22,768 nt of DNA from a virus: positions 1 to 22,768 of IMG/VR virus record IMGVR_UViG_3300017719_000227; one strand, written 5' to 3'. Numbering within the stretch: position 1 is the first letter of the stretch; each line of letters starts with the position of its first letter. The position numbers and the translations under genes are program-made. This document shows, piece after piece, positions 1,380-9,459 of the stretch. The notes beneath the pieces were generated by a model. The model was not told the origin of the DNA. It made no database searches and worked only from the letters and a program-made list of their open reading frames with translations.

Positions 1380-1700
1380 TTAAAAAATCCAATTCAACAA
1401 CAATAATATCACTGATGCAATGAAAATTCTGATCAATGTTAAATTAATACTGTTTTTTGCCATCATATAATCTTTGAACCTGTAATGGTGTGCATGTGGC
1501 AAAAGTAAATGCAAAAACCTGTCAATTGTCCACAATATGTAAACCAATGGCAATAATGCACCTGCCAAAATTCTTTTCCAACGTGGATGTTTTATTTTTT
1601 CACTGTTTAAAATTTTACTTTTGGCATCATCAATAATTTCCTTTGCAGTTTTATCCTTTAAACCTGCACGTTCATTTTTTCGTTTTTCCTGTCTGTTCAT
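1380..1700 (-). CDS. Small two-TM membrane protein ahead of the terminase genes
   Basis: I do not recognise this 106-residue protein. It has a strongly basic, charged N-terminal third (residues 1-43), a probable membrane helix at about 44-62, a short linker with a HAHH cluster near 69-72, and a second probable membrane helix at about 87-105 at the extreme C-terminus. Two TM segments in a small protein can suggest a holin, but the lysis cassette with its own candidate lies far away at 9958-11538. It is the first gene downstream of the 1722-1770 terminator and sits 7 bases ahead of terS. It is therefore probably co-transcribed with the packaging genes. A role in membrane-associated packaging, superinfection exclusion or a second lysis function is possible, but nothing here decides it. 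Confidence 0.7.
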   Translation of the reverse strand: MNRQEKRKNERAGLKDKTAKEIIDDAKSKILNSEKIKHPRWKRILAGALLPLVYILWTIDRFLHLLLPHAHHYRFKDYMMAKNSINLTLIRIFIASVILLLLNWIF

Positions 1701-1711
1701 AATACAAATAT

Positions 1712-1770
1712 AAAAAAAAAGAAAATGGGATGCATTTAATATGATTTATCAATCACCTGCACCCCATTTT
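1712..1770 (-). terminator. Strong rho-independent terminator with nested hairpin
   Basis: On the minus strand the arm AAAATGGGGTGCA (1770-1758) pairs with TGCATCCCATTTT (1734-1722). This gives 13 pairs with a single G-T wobble, followed by a C and nine T. The 23-base loop holds a second small hairpin, TGATT-GATA-AATCA. It closes the short operon ending with the gene at 1817 and lies just before the membrane protein/terminase genes. It also lies only about 11 bases downstream of the predicted start site of the promoter at 1788-1820. Confidence 0.85.
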
Positions 1771-1787
1771 ACATAAAACATAACTTT

Positions 1788-1820
1788 CAAATGTACAAAA
1801 AATTGTACTGTTTTCATCAA
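1788..1820 (-). promoter_or_regulatory. Bacteroidota-type promoter (TTG-N22-TACATTTG) with overlapping palindrome
   Basis: On the minus strand a TTG (1820-1818) lies 22 bases before TACATTTG (1795-1788), matching the TAnnTTTG -7 box of Bacteroidota and the permitted spacing. A palindrome GTACAA-AAAA-TTGTAC (1793-1808) overlaps the -7 box and could be an operator. The predicted start is about 1781, immediately ahead of the terminator hairpin at 1770-1722. The TTG overlaps the stop of the upstream gene. Confidence 0.55.
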
Positions 1821-2534: not shown

Positions 2535-2563
2535 AAAAAAAATGGGCAGGTGTTACCCTGCCC
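2535..2563 (-). terminator. Rho-independent terminator or attenuator inside the short operon
   Basis: On the minus strand GGGCAGG (2563-2557) pairs with CCTGCCC (2550-2544) around a six-base loop. One A and eight T follow. It is an unusually GC-rich stem for this genome. It lies between the 189-residue gene (stop at 2577) and the next gene (ATG at 2517), and I see no promoter in the 18 bases after it. Confidence 0.88.
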
Positions 2564-2576
2564 TGATAAATATTTA

Positions 2577-3146
2577 TTAAAATGATGGATCACGGTATTG
2601 TTCCATTACTCCAAAAATCACTGATTGTTTTGTGAAATTTTTATATTTTTTTGTTACACCATCAATCAATTTCATTTGGTTGTAAAAATTATCTGCATTT
2701 GGATTTTCATATAAATGTTGGTAGGATTCAATTTTATAATCTTTTAATAAAAATTCTGTTGATCCCCAACCATATTGTTTATTATATTTTTTCCATAATG
2801 ATTTGATGATTTCAACAGAATATCCAACTGATCCCCAACATTGTTTTTTGTTGTTCCATTCTAATTGCATTGTATGGTTTTCAGGGTTTGATTTATATGT
2901 GTACCTTTCATCACCATAACATTCACCAACATGTGTTGTTTCCATTTTACGTATTACGCATTCCATGCCGTTTGCAGACACTTCAATCACTTCATATGCA
3001 CTGCGATCTGAATAACTTAATAATGTTGCACCCTCACCAACAACAGGAATTGTTGAATTATTGCCCATCATTTGATTGATAAATCCACCTGCAACCCCCA
3101 CTTTTCTGGTTTGTCTTTTTACTGAATTGTTAACTGATTTTTTCAT
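2577..3146 (-). CDS. Conserved phage protein of unknown function, 189 aa
   Basis: I cannot name a family for this 189-residue protein. It has a basic N-terminus (residues 1-18). A central beta-rich block follows, with a VGEGATLLSYSDRSAYEV-type stretch near 36-53 and a YTYKSNPE segment near 82-89. This combination recurs in uncharacterised phage proteins I have seen. The C-terminal half is aromatic-rich and probably helical. It is the first gene behind the promoter at 3180-3209, with a leader carrying three copies of an AAAACAT unit, and it is followed by a strong terminator. A gene alone between promoter and terminator should be made in quantity relative to the genes beyond. Function is unknown. 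Confidence 0.75.
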   Translation of the reverse strand: MKKSVNNSVKRQTRKVGVAGGFINQMMGNNSTIPVVGEGATLLSYSDRSAYEVIEVSANGMECVIRKMETTHVGECYGDERYTYKSNPENHTMQLEWNNKKQCWGSVGYSVEIIKSLWKKYNKQYGWGSTEFLLKDYKIESYQHLYENPNADNFYNQMKLIDGVTKKYKNFTKQSVIFGVMEQYRDPSF

Positions 3147-3179
3147 GTTTTATGTTTTATGTTTTGCGTTATTGCCCTA

Positions 3180-3284: not shown

Positions 3285-3521
3285 TTATTTGTTGATCAGA
3301 TCCCCAATTTTTTGCACTGTGGTTAAATTTAAACCACGTTCATTGTTTAAAAACATATACATTTGATTTGGGTGTACATCACACATTTTTGCAAATGCAT
3401 GTGTTGTTAATGTGTGTTCCTTAATATAATGATTGCAAATTGCACGTACATCATCAACCAAAAATTTTAATTGTTTTGATTTTATTGGTGTGCGTTTTAC
3501 GGTTTTTTTTATTTTTTCCAT
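3285..3521 (-). CDS. Small helix-turn-helix DNA-binding protein
   Basis: This 78-residue protein has a basic N-terminal arm (residues 1-19). A Cro/CI-like helix-turn-helix follows at about 38-72: the AFAKMCDVHPNQMYMFLNN stretch fits the first helices and the recognition helix, followed by NLTTVQKIGDL as a last helix. Such single-domain proteins usually act as transcriptional repressors or early-to-late switches. It is the last gene of the replication operon, right before a terminator and the next promoter. The palindrome-bearing promoters at 1788-1820 and 9811-9843 are natural candidate targets. No cognate integrase or large CI-type repressor is visible, so lysogeny cannot be inferred. The HTH assignment is fairly secure; the regulatory role is inference. 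Confidence 0.72.
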   Translation of the reverse strand: MEKIKKTVKRTPIKSKQLKFLVDDVRAICNHYIKEHTLTTHAFAKMCDVHPNQMYMFLNNERGLNLTTVQKIGDLINK

Positions 3522-4451: not shown

Positions 4452-5198
4452 TTATTTTTTTATAGATTTTTCAATTTCTTTTGCCTGATCAATTTGTGAT
4501 TGTAAAAAATCAACCAAATTGTTTTCCTGTGCCTTAGATAATGCAAATGTTGCACGTAATTTATCCTCATGGTATGCACCATTTTTAATTGCAGTTAATG
4601 CATCATTGAAACGTTTTGAATTAATTTTTTCCTTTTCAACAACCAAAACATTTTTTGTTTTTGTTTCTGGTTTTTTATTTGCAGGTACAGGATCAGGTGT
4701 TGGTGCAACATATCCATCGGGCAAATCCTCACCTGCATAAATATAAATCCCCAAACCAAACATTGCCAAATTTTTTACCAAACAACGCATCAATGCTTTA
4801 TTAATATCCATCATTGATGCAGGTGCAACAGTTATTTTTTTGCCTGATCTAAATGTAATATCATATGATTGTGATTTTTGTGCATTGTTTGAATTGTCCA
4901 TAACAGGCAACCACATATCATGCGTTTCACCCCCTGTTGTTACACGTGTTTGCACCAAAATACCAAATTCATCAACCATGTATGGTTTGTTTGTTTCAGG
5001 ATCTTTGATTATTTCATAATTTGCATCAGGACAATGTTTTTTAAATTCAGACCATGCCCACGCCCATGATAAATACGTAAAATTGTTGCGTTTTTCTGTG
5101 TTTGCATTAACGTTTAATGCAGATAATTTTGAAAACAATGGTTGTTTTGCAGTTGTTGCACGTGATTTACGTGCAGGTGTTTTTTTGGAATTTTCCAT
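4452..5198 (-). CDS. Sak3-type single-strand annealing protein (DUF1071)
   Basis: This 248-residue protein matches the DUF1071/Sak3 group of phage recombinases that anneal complementary single strands. Diagnostic features are an N-terminal FTYLSWAWAWSEFKKHCPDA block near residues 40-59, a central beta-rich region, and an ASMMDINKALMRCLVKNLAM helix block near 126-145. GLGIYIYAGEDLP follows. The first 20 residues are basic and the C-terminal 60 are helical and charged. It belongs to a recombination set with NinG, Gp157 and an SSB-like protein; I see no partner exonuclease in this window. The leader carries the recurring AAACATAACAAA element. Confidence 0.82.
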   Translation of the reverse strand: MENSKKTPARKSRATTAKQPLFSKLSALNVNANTEKRNNFTYLSWAWAWSEFKKHCPDANYEIIKDPETNKPYMVDEFGILVQTRVTTGGETHDMWLPVMDNSNNAQKSQSYDITFRSGKKITVAPASMMDINKALMRCLVKNLAMFGLGIYIYAGEDLPDGYVAPTPDPVPANKKPETKTKNVLVVEKEKINSKRFNDALTAIKNGAYHEDKLRATFALSKAQENNLVDFLQSQIDQAKEIEKSIKK

Positions 5199-5219
5199 TT
5201 TGTTATGTTTATGATTTAA

Positions 5220-5414
5220 TTAAATTGTTTTTAAGCGAATTGGACACACACCCATCATGCGTAATGATGAATCAAACAATTCCTTTGCAAATGCATCTGC
5301 ATTGTACCGTTCCTGTGGTGTAGTTAAACCCATTTCAAAATCTAATTTGTTTTTTTCCAAACGTTTTTTGTATGTAGATTTGAACGGTTGTGTTGAATAA
5401 TGCAATGATTTCAT
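5220..5414 (-). CDS. Small hypothetical protein, 64 aa
   Basis: I do not recognise this 64-residue basic protein. It has many Lys and Arg in the first 25 residues and a predicted helix around residues 34-52 (TPQERYNADAFAKELFDSS). The start at 5414 is supported by a leader of the type shared by early genes (AAAACATAACACAC). It lies between NinG (66-base gap) and the Sak3-type gene. No convincing promoter is visible in that gap, although AT-rich sequence similar to the spacers of the two clear promoters is present at 5446-5474. Function is unknown. Confidence 0.6.
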   Translation of the reverse strand: MKSLHYSTQPFKSTYKKRLEKNKLDFEMGLTTPQERYNADAFAKELFDSSLRMMGVCPIRLKTI

Positions 5415-5480
5415 GTGTGTTATGTTTTAAATATGGTGCAATATACAAAATAAATTTATATCAATGCAAATTTAATTTAT

Positions 5481-6038: not shown

Positions 6039-6394
6039 TTAAAAAATATTTTTATGAATTTATTTGTTTCATTTTCTGCAAATTCAATTAATTTTTCCTC
6101 ACATTGTTGATCATTTAACCTGAATGATAAATGCATCATTTCATGCATCATTAATGTTATAAATTGAAATTTGTTTTGTGTTTTTAAAGTGTTTACATAT
6201 ACAAAATATTTATTTGTTGTATATGGTATTAAATTACATAAACCTGCAATAAAACAATCATCATGTGTATCAACATGATTGATGCAATCAGATCTGTTCA
6301 AACCATGCAAATGATCTACATTAAAATAATTAAACAAATCAATTGATTTATCTGAATATAAAAAAACGTAATTATGTTGATCAATAGATTTCAT
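6035..6394 (-). CDS. HExxH-motif putative zinc metalloprotease
   Basis: This 119-residue protein contains an HEMMH motif at about residues 84-88. It is followed 11-12 residues later by a double Glu (99-100) and then a helix ending EFAENETN, so it fits a minimal zincin with a downstream acidic third ligand. No signal peptide or membrane segment is present, so it would act in the cytoplasm. The N-terminal 70 residues match nothing I know. It is fused translationally to its neighbours: its ATG overlaps the helicase stop by one base (TAATG) and its stop overlaps the NinG start by four bases. ImmA/IrrE-type anti-repressor proteases are one possible analogy, but they are larger and differ outside the motif. 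Catalytic activity is inference. Confidence 0.6.
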   Translation of the reverse strand: MKSIDQHNYVFLYSDKSIDLFNYFNVDHLHGLNRSDCINHVDTHDDCFIAGLCNLIPYTTNKYFVYVNTLKTQNKFQFITLMMHEMMHLSFRLNDQQCEEKLIEFAENETNKFIKIFFK

Positions 6395-7737
6395 TAAAAT
6401 GGTGCATTTGTATGGTATAAATTTGATTGTTCCATTTTTATTGGTTCAAATACAGGTGCATCATCATCTGCCCATGTTGATGTTGCCAATTCAATTTTCA
6501 TTGGCACAATTCCTGTTTCACCCTCACGGTTTTTGGCAATTAAAAATTCACCTTTTCCCTGTGTTGAATTACCGTTTTCATCCTGCATTTCACCGTAATA
6601 TTCTGCACGGTGCAAAAATCCAACAACTGATGCATCCTGTTCAATTTCCCCTGATTCCTTTAAATCAGGCAATGATGGTCTTTTGCCTGTTTTTGCACTA
6701 TCACGTGATAATTGTGCCATTGCAATACATGGTATTTTTATGCCCATTGTCAAACGTTTAATATCATTTGATATACGTGTAACCTCTGTGTATCTGTTTT
6801 CTGATTTTGATGGTATTATTTTTTGCAAATAATCAACCAAATAAACATCCAACCCTGTTGTGTTTTTTAACTCTGTAACCTTTCTGGTAATATCCAAAAC
6901 GTTTTTTGATCCATCAATAAATGTGATGTTTGCCCAACCTGCACTGTGTTTAATATCATAAATTTTTTGCAATTCTGATTCTGTGCATTCACCCAATTTC
7001 ATTTTGTTTGAATCAATACCACTGATTGTTGCAATCATCCTACGCATAATTTGTGCATTGCTCATTTCTAAACTAAAAACACAACATTTTTTGTTCATAT
7101 CAAATGCCAATTGTTTTGCACATGAAACCAACCATGCCGTTTTTCCCATTGCAGGGCGACCACCCACAACCATTACATCAATGTTTTCCAAAATTATTTT
7201 GTTGTATGTACCTTTCCAACCTAATTGCAAACCCATTTCAACACCATTTTTTGCATTTTCATGCCGTGTTAAAACATCATCAATAATTTGTTCATTGGTT
7301 TGATCCTGCACGTTGTTGTTTTCCAATAACATTGTTTTTGTTTGATCACACAATTGTATTACATCATCAGGTGAAAAGTTTGGATCATCAACCTTTTCCA
7401 TGAAATCACGCATGAATTTATTTACCTGACTAATTTTGTATTGAAAATCAACATTATTTATTAATGATTCAATTCTTATGTATGGTGCATCATTGGTTGC
7501 ACATGATGTTTGATACACTGCATTTTTTGACAACCTGTTGTTTTTACGTAAACATTCAACAACAGTTAAAATATCAACCTGTTTATTGTCTTTTAACAAT
7601 TCACCAATGGCAAAATGCCAATCTTTGTGAATTTGCATTACGTTCCATTCTGGTTTTATTATTGGGTAATATTCCTGTATCACCTCTGAATTATGAATAA
7701 ATAAATATCCATAAATATTTGTTAAATCATCAATCAT
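6394..7737 (-). CDS. dnaB: DnaB-type replicative helicase
   Basis: This is a hexameric 5'-3' replicative helicase of 447 residues, close to normal DnaB length. The N-terminal helical domain (about 1-115) is followed by a linker and a RecA-like core. In the core, the Walker A motif GGRPAMGKT is at 192-200, the FSLEMS motif at 221-226, the Walker B aspartate in YLVDYLQ near 302, AQLSRD at 341-346 and LKESGEIEQDASVV at 359-372. A downstream HR near 376-377 is positioned like the arginine finger region. It lies directly behind the DUF4373 replication protein, which probably acts as origin binder or helicase loader. The leader is ATAAAACAAAAC with no Shine-Dalgarno. Confidence 0.93.
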   Translation of the reverse strand: MIDDLTNIYGYLFIHNSEVIQEYYPIIKPEWNVMQIHKDWHFAIGELLKDNKQVDILTVVECLRKNNRLSKNAVYQTSCATNDAPYIRIESLINNVDFQYKISQVNKFMRDFMEKVDDPNFSPDDVIQLCDQTKTMLLENNNVQDQTNEQIIDDVLTRHENAKNGVEMGLQLGWKGTYNKIILENIDVMVVGGRPAMGKTAWLVSCAKQLAFDMNKKCCVFSLEMSNAQIMRRMIATISGIDSNKMKLGECTESELQKIYDIKHSAGWANITFIDGSKNVLDITRKVTELKNTTGLDVYLVDYLQKIIPSKSENRYTEVTRISNDIKRLTMGIKIPCIAMAQLSRDSAKTGKRPSLPDLKESGEIEQDASVVGFLHRAEYYGEMQDENGNSTQGKGEFLIAKNREGETGIVPMKIELATSTWADDDAPVFEPIKMEQSNLYHTNAPF

Positions 7738-7745
7738 GTTTTGTT

Positions 7746-8492
7746 TTATGTTGTTGGTGTGTATGTTTTATTTATTTTTTTAGATTCAATAAATGCATAT
7801 TGATCCAATGTTTTTGCACGTGCAAAATATTCCAAAGTACAAAATTTAAAATTATTTTCTTTGTGGAATGCATCATTTTTACAAACGTTCATTGCCTTTG
7901 CAATATCTGTTGTGTTGTACCCATCTTTTAAACGTGCATTATATTTTTGTTTTACTGTTGGTGCAAATACCTTGCATCTTTTACCAAATGAATCATTGAA
8001 AAAATCCAAAAGTTTATCAAATTCAATTTTATTTTCTTTTGTTTTACTTTCTTTTGTTTTCTTTTCCTTTGTTGGTTTTTGTTCAACACTTGTTAAATTT
8101 TGTTCATCAGGTGTTGATTGTTTTGCACGTTTTTCTGCACTTTTTTTACCTGCATAACTGCGTTTTTCAATTACTGATTGCCTTTTTTCCATGTTATTTA
8201 ATACACGTTCAGAATAAAAATAATCACCATCTGTGCGTAATAAATCACAATCATCAATCAAACAGTTTATCATTTTTTCAATTTCATCTGCATCAACTTT
8301 AAGTTGAAAACCCAATGCAATAAAAATGTATTTTTTTAATGGTAATTTGTGTTGTTGATCTTCATGCAACATTTCAATTATTCGCCAAAATACACCATAC
8401 CCAGATGCACCAAACACTGATAAAAATGCCTGTACTTTTGGATCTGATGTTGTTGAATAATCATGTGCAAAATAAAATGTATCTTTTTTCAT
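7746..8492 (-). CDS. DUF4373 (Lin1244/Lin1753-like) replication protein
   Basis: This 248-residue protein has an N-terminal DUF4373 domain (about residues 1-105, starting TFYFAHDYSTTSDPKVQAF, with GASGYGVFWRIIEMLHE near 29-45), a winged-helix-like fold found in phage and plasmid replication proteins. A long Lys/Glu-rich linker follows (about 108-155). A C-terminal helical domain (FDKLLDFFNDSFGKR, VKQKYNARLKDGY, CTLEYFARAKTLDQY) resembles the DnaD-like tails that bind or load helicase. It sits immediately upstream of dnaB with 8 bases between them. I infer origin recognition or helicase loading. The leader holds the clearest copy of the AAAACAAAACATAACAA element. Confidence 0.8.
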   Translation of the reverse strand: MKKDTFYFAHDYSTTSDPKVQAFLSVFGASGYGVFWRIIEMLHEDQQHKLPLKKYIFIALGFQLKVDADEIEKMINCLIDDCDLLRTDGDYFYSERVLNNMEKRQSVIEKRSYAGKKSAEKRAKQSTPDEQNLTSVEQKPTKEKKTKESKTKENKIEFDKLLDFFNDSFGKRCKVFAPTVKQKYNARLKDGYNTTDIAKAMNVCKNDAFHKENNFKFCTLEYFARAKTLDQYAFIESKKINKTYTPTT

Positions 8493-8511
8493 TTGTTATG
8501 TTTTGTTTTAT
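8493..8511 (-). promoter_or_regulatory. A-rich leader element of the early genes (clearest copy)
   Basis: On the minus strand ATAAAACAAAACATAACAA immediately precedes the ATG of the DUF4373 gene. Near-copies precede ATGs at 3146, 5198, 5414, 7737, 8998 and 9440. No Shine-Dalgarno is present at any of them. A-rich leaders are known to drive initiation in Bacteroidota, so this most likely acts in translation; its repeated exact wording is stronger than composition alone would need. Confidence 0.5.
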
Positions 8512-8530: not shown

Positions 8531-8998
8531 TTAATTACCGTTTAACAAATCATCCAAATCAAATTTTGTTGATAATGCCTGTTTGATTGTTATTTGATCC
8601 ATTGAATACCCATACACCTTTGCATTAAATACATTTGCATATTTTGGCATTAATATATTACCACGCACAAAATCAAAACCCTGTTGCGTAACTTTGTAAA
8701 ATCCATTGTTTTCAGGATCATTTTGTATTAATCTGAAATACAATAATTTCTGCCAATCTGCACGTTGTGTTGGTGTAATGTTTTGATTGTCCAATATTGT
8801 TGCGAATTTTGTATATTGATTGCCTTTTTTCTGTGTATGCAATACAAATTTAATTAAACAAAATGCCATTGTTGATGCCAATTTACGTTTGTAAAGTTGA
8901 ACACGTTGATTACATGCAGGGCAATAACAACCATCTTTGTAATTTTCGTTTAAATACTTTTTTACATCCTGCAATGATGTTTCATTATTTGTTACCAT
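8531..8998 (-). CDS. Conserved early protein with a CPAC zinc-like motif, 155 aa
   Basis: I cannot name this 155-residue protein with certainty. Near residues 24-29 it has a CYCPAC cluster (possible zinc or redox pair, though no second cysteine pair follows close by). A helical segment comes next, then a winged-helix-like stretch at about 70-120 (TPTQRADWQKLLYFRLIQ and NGFYKVTQQGFDFVRG) where a beta wing would follow. Such a layout suggests a DNA-binding accessory protein of the replication region. It lies upstream of the DUF4373 gene, has the shared ATAAAACAAAACAA leader, and its start is overlapped by a possible tiny gene (8992-9102). The winged-helix reading is inference. Confidence 0.72.
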   Translation of the reverse strand: MVTNNETSLQDVKKYLNENYKDGCYCPACNQRVQLYKRKLASTMAFCLIKFVLHTQKKGNQYTKFATILDNQNITPTQRADWQKLLYFRLIQNDPENNGFYKVTQQGFDFVRGNILMPKYANVFNAKVYGYSMDQITIKQALSTKFDLDDLLNGN

Positions 8999-9102
8999 TT
9001 GTTTTGTTTTATGTAAATTCTAATTTTAATAAAAAATAAATTGATTTTAATTACTCTTTTCCATGCAATACCAAAATCATCTGTGTGGTGTTTATTACTC
9101 AT
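8992..9102 (-). CDS. Possible tiny gene, 36 aa
   Basis: I found this short open frame by hand. ATG at 9102 lies inside the last codons of the upstream gene (ATGAGTAA, overlap of 8 bases). The frame runs MSNKHHTDDFGIAWKRVIK and then a basic, Ile-rich tail ending in KQNKW, with its stop 7 bases inside the next gene. Exact bridging of the gap between two genes with overlaps on both sides is typical of compact phage operons. Against it, the tail is translated from the A/T-rich leader of the next gene and looks compositionally random. I rate it as possible, not established. Confidence 0.3.
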   Translation of the reverse strand: MSNKHHTDDFGIAWKRVIKINLFFIKIRIYIKQNKW

Positions 9103-9316
9103 TGTTCATTTTTGATTGATAAACCCTGAACTGTACACCATCAATTGTTTCAACCTTAAATGGTATTTCCTGTGCATATAAGTTTTGCATTGACCATGTT
9201 TTTGTTTCATAAATAAAATACCCTTTTGATACTTTTAAATGAACATCATACAATTGTTGCATTAAATCCCTGTGATCCTTATAATACAGATCTATATTAA
9301 TTTTTTTTAATGCCAT
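9095..9316 (-). CDS. Small hypothetical early protein, 73 aa
   Basis: I do not recognise this 73-residue protein. It has a basic start (MALKKINIDLYYKDH), a short helix near residues 15-30 and alternating hydrophobic residues consistent with beta strands to the end (KGYFIYETKTW, IPFKVETIDGVQFRVYQ). There are no cysteines and no membrane segment. It overlaps the end of the 47-residue gene before it by 20 bases. It belongs to the cluster of small genes just behind the early promoter, a place where phages often carry host-takeover or regulatory proteins; that role is only positional inference here. Confidence 0.6.
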   Translation of the reverse strand: MALKKINIDLYYKDHRDLMQQLYDVHLKVSKGYFIYETKTWSMQNLYAQEIPFKVETIDGVQFRVYQSKMNNE

Positions 9317-9440
9317 TTCTGTATTTTTTTACTTTTAAATAATGATCTAAATTAAACGATGATCTGATTACATCATTGTTTGTTTGCCTGTTCCAATGGG
9401 CAATAATTACCCATAATCGGTTTGTTAATAGTGATTCCAT
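9297..9440 (-). CDS. Small hypothetical early protein, 47 aa
   Basis: I found this 47-residue gene by hand; it is shorter than common length cut-offs. ATG at 9440 is preceded on the minus strand by AAAACAAAACATAAC, the same leader that precedes dnaB, the DUF4373 gene and others, which is the main support for it. The protein begins MESLLTNRLWVIIAHWNRQ, has an aliphatic-aromatic N-terminal stretch too short for a clear membrane helix, and ends with a basic tail (YLKVKKYRNGIKKN). Its stop lies 20 bases inside the next gene. Nothing indicates a function. Confidence 0.55.
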   Translation of the reverse strand: MESLLTNRLWVIIAHWNRQTNNDVIRSSFNLDHYLKVKKYRNGIKKN

Positions 9441-9459
9441 GTTATGTTTTGTTTTTAAT

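Follow-up and report, generated by a model that had tools for sequence, protein, structure and literature searches.

A predicted phage small RNA with conserved 5' complementarity to the starts of early replication genes

Late control in lambdoid phages employs a promoter situated near a terminator ahead of the late genes, together with antitermination by Q. To our knowledge, the corresponding switch from early to late expression in phages of the Bacteroidota has been little described. Small RNAs that act on phage genes include P22 sar, lambda OOP, aQ, VP882 VpdS and Phi24B 24B_1 (reviewed in PMC12197685); each of sar, OOP and aQ is antisense to one gene, the target of 24B_1 is d_ant, and VpdS binds Hfq and acts on both host and phage RNAs (PMC12197685). 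Within the Bacteroidota, the trans-encoded small RNA GibS of Bacteroides thetaiotaomicron has a Bacteroidota-type promoter and an intrinsic terminator, and exerts repression through a conserved, single-stranded 5' seed that pairs with mRNA start regions, in a host without an obvious homologue of Hfq or ProQ (PMC7366714). Control of many phage mRNAs by one regulator is known from phage T4, where the RegA protein binds at or just before the AUG of approximately 30 mRNAs (PMC3014915). Finally, the ‘stoperators’ of mycobacteriophages L5 and Bxb1 are numerous short, oriented sites that are bound as DNA by the repressor (PMC6550527).

The window analyzed here (that is, the whole stretch of 22,768 nucleotides of viral record IMGVR_UViG_3300017719_000227) is a 22.8-kb record of a tailed phage, the likely genes of which all lie on the minus strand. 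Along that strand, tail genes are followed by a replication and recombination set (a DnaD-like initiator, DnaB, NinG/Rap, Sak, a Gam-like protein and SSB), then by ORF 1817-2128, a promoter-hairpin element, a gene for a small membrane protein, terS and terL; a related contig of 31.4 kb (G001) spans the complete layout, from early genes through the element to late genes. The promoter type, and terminase relatives at 52% identity in Flavobacterium and Dysgonomonas genomes, point to a host within the Bacteroidota; one terminase relative, at 65% identity, is found within a contig filed as a Rhodobacteraceae MAG. The element and the gene that follows it comprise these features:

1818..1820, minus strand: TTG, a possible -33 element by sequence reading, 22 bases from the -7 box; kept in L002 only
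1788..1795, minus strand: -7 box TACATTTG, of the Bacteroidota TAnnTTTG type; a box lies at the same place in RNA-bearing relatives
1712..1784, minus strand: proposed small RNA of approximately 73 nt, from the predicted first base, 1784, to the end of the T-run (from the fold z-score and the layout in relatives)
1771..1784, minus strand: 5' pairing end GUUAUGUUUUAUGU, predicted to be unpaired; first 11 nt identical in types A-D (defined below)
1722..1770, minus strand: hairpin with a 13-pair lower stem and a short upper stem (fold)
1712..1721, minus strand: T-run of an intrinsic terminator (sequence reading)
1380..1700, minus strand: small membrane-protein gene, the first gene to follow the RNA in the genomes that were compared

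The original prediction had described a promoter that fires directly into a terminator ahead of the packaging genes, and its components are present as described: TACATTTG at 1795-1788 and the TTG at 1820-1818 are 22 bases apart, the 13-pair stem extends from 1770 to 1722 with its T-tract continuing to 1712, and the membrane-protein gene, terS and terL follow in that order on the same strand. The 73-nt strand beginning at 1784 folds at -21.5 kcal/mol (z = -4.7), a value equalled by none of 200 shuffles; a simple terminator scan, with its loop limit of 8, missed this hairpin. The -7 box by itself is at chance level (51 copies of TANNTTTG in the window, against 47 expected) and derives its weight from being conserved at its place before the hairpin. 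In that position the TANATTTG box has not been lost from close relatives, being kept in L002-L012 and L034, as well as in the more distant L021-L024. Alignment of the relatives for joint conservation of promoter, palindrome and hairpin, which had been proposed as a check, gave a divided outcome: the -7 box and hairpin recur together, whereas neither the -33 TTG nor the GTACAA/TTGTAC palindrome extends beyond L002, the former being clear at its 22-base spacing only there and in the window, and the latter carrying one mismatch in L002. The suggestion that this palindrome serves as an operator is therefore not borne out by conservation. Within the window clade, 99% of hairpin cells are paired across nine distinct sequences and 12 of the 13 lower-stem pairs are invariant; no compensatory changes were found among those nine, a comparison that the near-invariant lower stem makes uninformative. 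A search of the window against Rfam families gave no match at gathering score, and weak, chance-level matches only (E 0.75 or worse).

The layout of the element, with a promoter close to a terminator before late genes, is alike to that of the lambdoid Q system, and the original prediction had offered, as one possibility, a lambda-like antitermination switch, in which promoter, leader and terminator are placed under an antiterminator and the hairpin acts in cis only. The position of the unit at the early/late boundary, before the membrane-protein gene, terS and terL and on one strand with them, is in keeping with such a switch. We nevertheless consider it very unlikely. The palindrome is not conserved, nor was any other conserved operator found; there is no Q-like protein among the annotated proteins of the window (an incomplete contig); the hairpin is followed, in the window clade, by another -7-like box, TATATTTG; and the feature that is conserved is the 5' end of the RNA, the complementarity of which to early genes an antitermination switch leaves unexplained. 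The TATATTTG box lies at 1705-1712 (minus strand), between the hairpin and the ATG of the membrane-protein gene, and a transcript from it would be nearly leaderless. A second terminator-like hairpin, GGGCAGGG..CCTGCCC followed by T8, is located at 2544-2563 (minus strand), between ORF 2577-3146 and ORF 2131-2517; a similar CATGCCC and T-run precedes the orthologue in G001, G004 and G007.

Across the relatives, the stretch that separates ORF 1817-2128 from the membrane-protein gene retains the TANATTTG box, a spacer of 3-5 bases, the 11-base 5' end GTTATGTTTTA, and a hairpin. Those 11 bases are identical in every lineage of four types: type A, the window clade; type B, consisting of L021, L022, L118 and L129; type C, L024; and type D, comprising L330, L331, L333, L355, L417, L418 and L419. 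The -7 box is TANATTTG in types A-C and TATATTAG, which is not of the TAnnTTTG form, in type D, where it possibly denotes another promoter specificity. Four of the type D lineages (L330, L331, L333 and L355) were obtained by DnaB protein similarity, at 42-55% identity, and the remaining three by a pattern scan; their hairpins are unrelated to those of the other types (for example, GAGAGGGG..CCCCTCTTTTTTT), and the RNA occupies the same position before the membrane-protein gene wherever the record covers the region. A strong T-run is seen in the window and L002, in type B and in several type D lineages, and a weak one (TTTTCTAATTTATT) in the other close relatives. A small RNA whose seed serves many targets would be expected to have just this form, an unvarying 5' end joined to a body that can be exchanged. 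A leader peptide was also considered, as the 5' end contains an ATG, and was rejected: in type B the reading is ATG TTT TAA, and the frame varies among relatives.

The first nine bases of the proposed RNA have an exact complement, AAACATAAC, that is found just before the ATG of early genes in the window. Four exact copies are present at early-gene starts, and longer pairings precede three further genes:

5202..5210, minus strand: AAACATAAC, 3 nt upstream of the start codon (ATG) of sak, the annealing protein gene (4452-5198)
5419..5427, minus strand: AAACATAAC, 4 nt before the ATG of a 64-aa ORF (5220-5414)
8495..8503, minus strand: AAACATAAC, 2 nt upstream of the start codon (ATG) of the gene for the DnaD-like replication initiator (7746-8492)
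9441..9449, minus strand: AAACATAAC, directly before the ATG of a 47-aa ORF (9297-9440)
3150..3162, minus strand: ACATAAAACATAA, an extended target preceding the ATG of ORF 2577-3146; pairing partner of RNA nt 2-14, duplex -13.1 kcal/mol
7743..7751, minus strand: ACATAAAAC, an extended target preceding the ATG of the gene for DnaB helicase (6394-7737); duplex -12.3
9006..9014, minus strand: ACATAAAAC, an extended target preceding the ATG of ORF 8531-8998; duplex -12.2

These sites recur in relatives. The sak site is also present in the G001, G007 and L010 orthologues and in G027, and that of the DnaD-like gene in all seven orthologues of RNA-bearing contigs, as well as in G027 and G031. The window's DnaB gene displays the extended form ACATAAAAC in place of the exact AAACATAAC that is found in G001, G002, G003, G007, G008, G009 and L129 (the other RNA-bearing orthologues with a readable start), and the L002 orthologue of ORF 2577-3146 contains the full ACATAAAACATAAC. 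Between the window clade and G008/G009, identity of the DnaD and DnaB proteins is 45-50% and the leaders are dissimilar, without any change in the 9-mer. In type D, target sites are found before DnaB, DnaD, Sak and small ORFs. Throughout the relatives, sense copies of AAACATAAC lie 0-10 bases before start codons and the antisense copy corresponds to the promoter-hairpin unit, apart from a few other antisense copies with no adjoining box or hairpin. Several early genes, including ssb and ninG, have no site. Copies outside called start regions occur at L005 1357 and at G025 3466 and 5690; the latter two may precede ORFs that fall under the 40-aa limit or were not called.

When the 25 bases before each start codon were taken as the translation initiation region, AAACATAAC proved to be the commonest 9-mer in those of the eight RNA-bearing contigs (29 of 288), as compared with 2 of 400 in nine RNA-less contigs (Fisher 8e-10, a p-value to be read as a guide, the genes not being independent). 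Such regions make up 2.5% of the sequence of the eight contigs and contain 29 of the 32 sense copies, all 29 ending either 0-5 or 10 nt before the ATG. The target genes are upstream (that is, on the early side) of the RNA in 28 of the 29 cases, and G004, which holds mainly late genes, has no target sites. A wider comparison gave a similar picture: sites are present in 8 of 8 clusters that possess the RNA and in 6 of 87 that do not (p 2.5e-8), in a sample of 95 sequence clusters (at least 7 kb, or shorter if carrying the RNA) that was gathered mainly by protein similarity and in which the RNA-bearing clusters include the window clade, where the motif was first seen. In each of the six RNA-less clusters, target-like sites number one or two, and most of them occur as single copies.

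It is conceivable that AAACATAAC is simply a favored translation-start sequence, an iteron or a module-boundary repeat, and that its copy at the promoter is coincidental; the start regions of Bacteroidota phages are A-rich, and the sites lie near replication genes. Of the explanations weighed here we regard this as the least probable, given that the site is nearly absent from the start regions of RNA-less phages and that its copies are dispersed rather than clustered. A repeat at start codons was observed elsewhere, in G012 (L189/L190) and G013 (L191/L192), where a terminator-like hairpin is followed by TAAACCTTT just before start codons, in 4-5 units per genome; a k-mer search found no comparable intergenic antisense partner for TAAACCTTT, which also counts against a favored start sequence or iteron as the origin of the pairing described here. 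The same kind of search, over nine contigs of RNA-less phages, found no other seed/target pair.

Additional tests addressed the match between each RNA and its own genome. At successive positions along the RNA, matches to its complement peak at nt 1-15 and set in abruptly at the G expected as +1; since this abrupt onset of complementarity to the target genes falls at 1784, that base is more likely to be the first of the RNA than 1781, near which the start had been predicted. Hybridization energies obtained with a genome's own seed were not equalled by any of 300 shuffled seeds in the window, G001 or G008, and own-seed duplexes at or below -9 kcal/mol numbered 8 in the window (0.74 for shuffled seeds) and 10 in G008 (0.11 for shuffled seeds); this excess is weaker in contigs with fewer early genes. 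The extension ACATAAAAC is complementary only to the longer 5' end of the window clade (GUUAUGUUUUAUGU); start regions contain it in 10 of 173 cases in that clade, 0 of 76 in types B and C, and 0 of 390 in RNA-less contigs (A versus B and C, p 0.03).

A different reading of the same repeats holds that they are DNA operators or stoperators: a phage repressor would bind AAACATAAC as DNA, oriented copies near gene starts would stop transcription, and the inverted copy at 1784-1776 would be the operator of the promoter. Like the sites of L5 and Bxb1, which are asymmetric, mostly one-way and in some cases inside promoters (PMC6550527), the repeats described here are oriented and asymmetric (32 sense copies in eight contigs, 29 of them in start regions), and the window encodes a small protein (3285-3521, minus strand) with a weak XRE-type HTH match (E 0.001, under the curated cut-off). 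We judge this reading improbable. Homologues of the XRE-like protein occur in relatives both with and without the RNA, including the site-less L014-L017 and L049; no integrase was found in the records, which are possibly incomplete; and the gaps that accommodate the sites are in some cases very short (21 nt before sak). A DNA operator would not predict the clade-specific extension ACATAAAAC, and it leaves unexplained why complementarity begins abruptly at the expected first base, why the distance to the -7 box is constantly 3-5 nt, and why a hairpin always follows; the stoperators of L5 and Bxb1 have no matching hairpin RNA (PMC6550527). A role of the element in lysogeny control was similarly dropped, an integrase not having been found in records that may be incomplete.

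A protein translational repressor resembling T4 RegA, for which AAACAUAAC would be an RNA-protein site in early mRNAs, would account for the position of the sites, placed as are those of RegA at or just before the AUG (PMC3014915). It would not lead one to expect that a conserved promoter-hairpin unit has an antisense copy at its start, or that RNA and sites co-occur, and we consider it highly improbable.

The limits of the family were examined by scanning viral contigs. An exhaustive pattern scan gave 39 matches with the TANATTTG box; those with a strong hairpin were all of type A, B or C, and target sites were confined to contigs of these types. In the type D scan, the ten matches without a strong hairpin had no target sites. 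A separate, loose pattern scan of viral contigs gave mostly chance matches. Approximately 60 further terminase relatives contained neither the RNA nor convincing target sites, and a DNA search of deposited phages for the same RNA gave short chance matches only and no close phage record. Copies of GTTATGTTT in L033 and L053, with no adjoining promoter box or hairpin, were judged to be chance. Outside this RNA family, an inverted repeat, CTCGCCAAA..TTTGGCGAG with TTATGTTTTA after it, recurred among the contigs met by the pattern scan, in L087, L106, L114, L125, L135, L142 and L147.

The hairpin, the conservation of the -7 box and 5' end, the complementarity, the position of the sites, the co-occurrence and the synteny are all computed observations, and on these we believe it likely that the element encodes a trans-acting small RNA of the phage, the 5' end of which pairs with the start regions of early replication mRNAs and probably blocks their translation. 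A short phage RNA was one of the possibilities raised in the original prediction, and its support now comes from evidence that the prediction did not contain, namely the complementarity of the 5' end to early-gene starts and its co-occurrence with those sites in relatives. According to the proposed mechanism, a host-type promoter would give rise to an RNA of approximately 73 nt, consisting of 5'-GUUAUGUUUUAUGU, the hairpin and a U-run. Its 5' end would pair with AAACAUAAC, or with its extension (ACAUAAAACAUAAC), immediately before the start codons in the mRNAs for the DnaD-like initiator, DnaB, Sak and small early ORFs, most likely keeping ribosomes off these messages, so that replication and recombination proteins would be lowered as the phage passes to packaging. 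We infer from the sequence comparisons that the RNA is made, as well as its exact ends, its pairing in the cell, its repressive action and its timing. Repression is the likeliest sign of control because the pairing covers the bases that adjoin the AUG, as is the case for GibS and, with a protein, for T4 RegA. The location of the element between early and late genes hints at a role in switching off the replication genes; the RNA might just as well serve as a permanent brake.

Read-through of the terminator would endow the late mRNA with the same 5' end, and such read-through into the membrane-protein, terS and terL genes may coexist with the small-RNA role. In the predicted folds, the seed is unpaired in the window clade; in types B and C, and in several lineages of type D, it pairs with a CATAAC-like sequence 3' of the hairpin, such that the 5' end may be partly hidden there. 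In some type D lineages the CATAAC-like partner is located past the T-run and, because of that placement, the seed would, speculatively, be free in the terminated RNA and hidden in the read-through RNA.

The proposed RNA, predicted from sequence, is alike to GibS in its promoter type, in its 5' seed directed against mRNA start regions and, in those lineages with a strong T-run, in its probable terminator; GibS, however, is chromosomal, has metabolic targets and possesses a seed of 30-50 nt, whereas the phage RNA has a seed of 11-14 nt that exactly matches several genes of its own genome. We know of no sequence relation between the two. Like T4 RegA, it would be one regulator acting over many early phage mRNA starts at positions adjoining the AUG, the agent here being an RNA rather than a protein. 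With sar, OOP, aQ, VpdS and 24B_1 it would share the properties of being encoded by a phage, acting by base-pairing and controlling phage genes (PMC12197685). The antisense action of sar, OOP and aQ on single genes is unlike a multi-gene seed, and that review describes none of the five as complementary to a site that is repeated at the starts of a group of replication genes (PMC12197685). Among the papers searched, few of them subscription ones, no phage small RNA was described that acts on its own replication-gene set via a repeated start-region site; those found act on single phage genes or on host genes (PMC12197685). Base-pairing small RNAs are a known kind of regulator; the family and its regulatory logic would be new.

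The prospects are evenly balanced that these elements represent a family of trans-acting phage small RNAs that lower the translation of their own replication genes, in which the 11-nt seed is kept while the remainder of the molecule is replaced, and in which late transcription could itself silence the early genes, because a read-through late mRNA would begin with the same seed. The target code is short and conserved enough for a compensatory test in one experiment and for searches in other phages. If the proposal is true, the control of a replication-gene regulon by a single RNA would be an RNA counterpart of T4 RegA, and would add a viral case to the few worked-out base-pairing RNAs in a phylum without obvious homologues of Hfq or ProQ.
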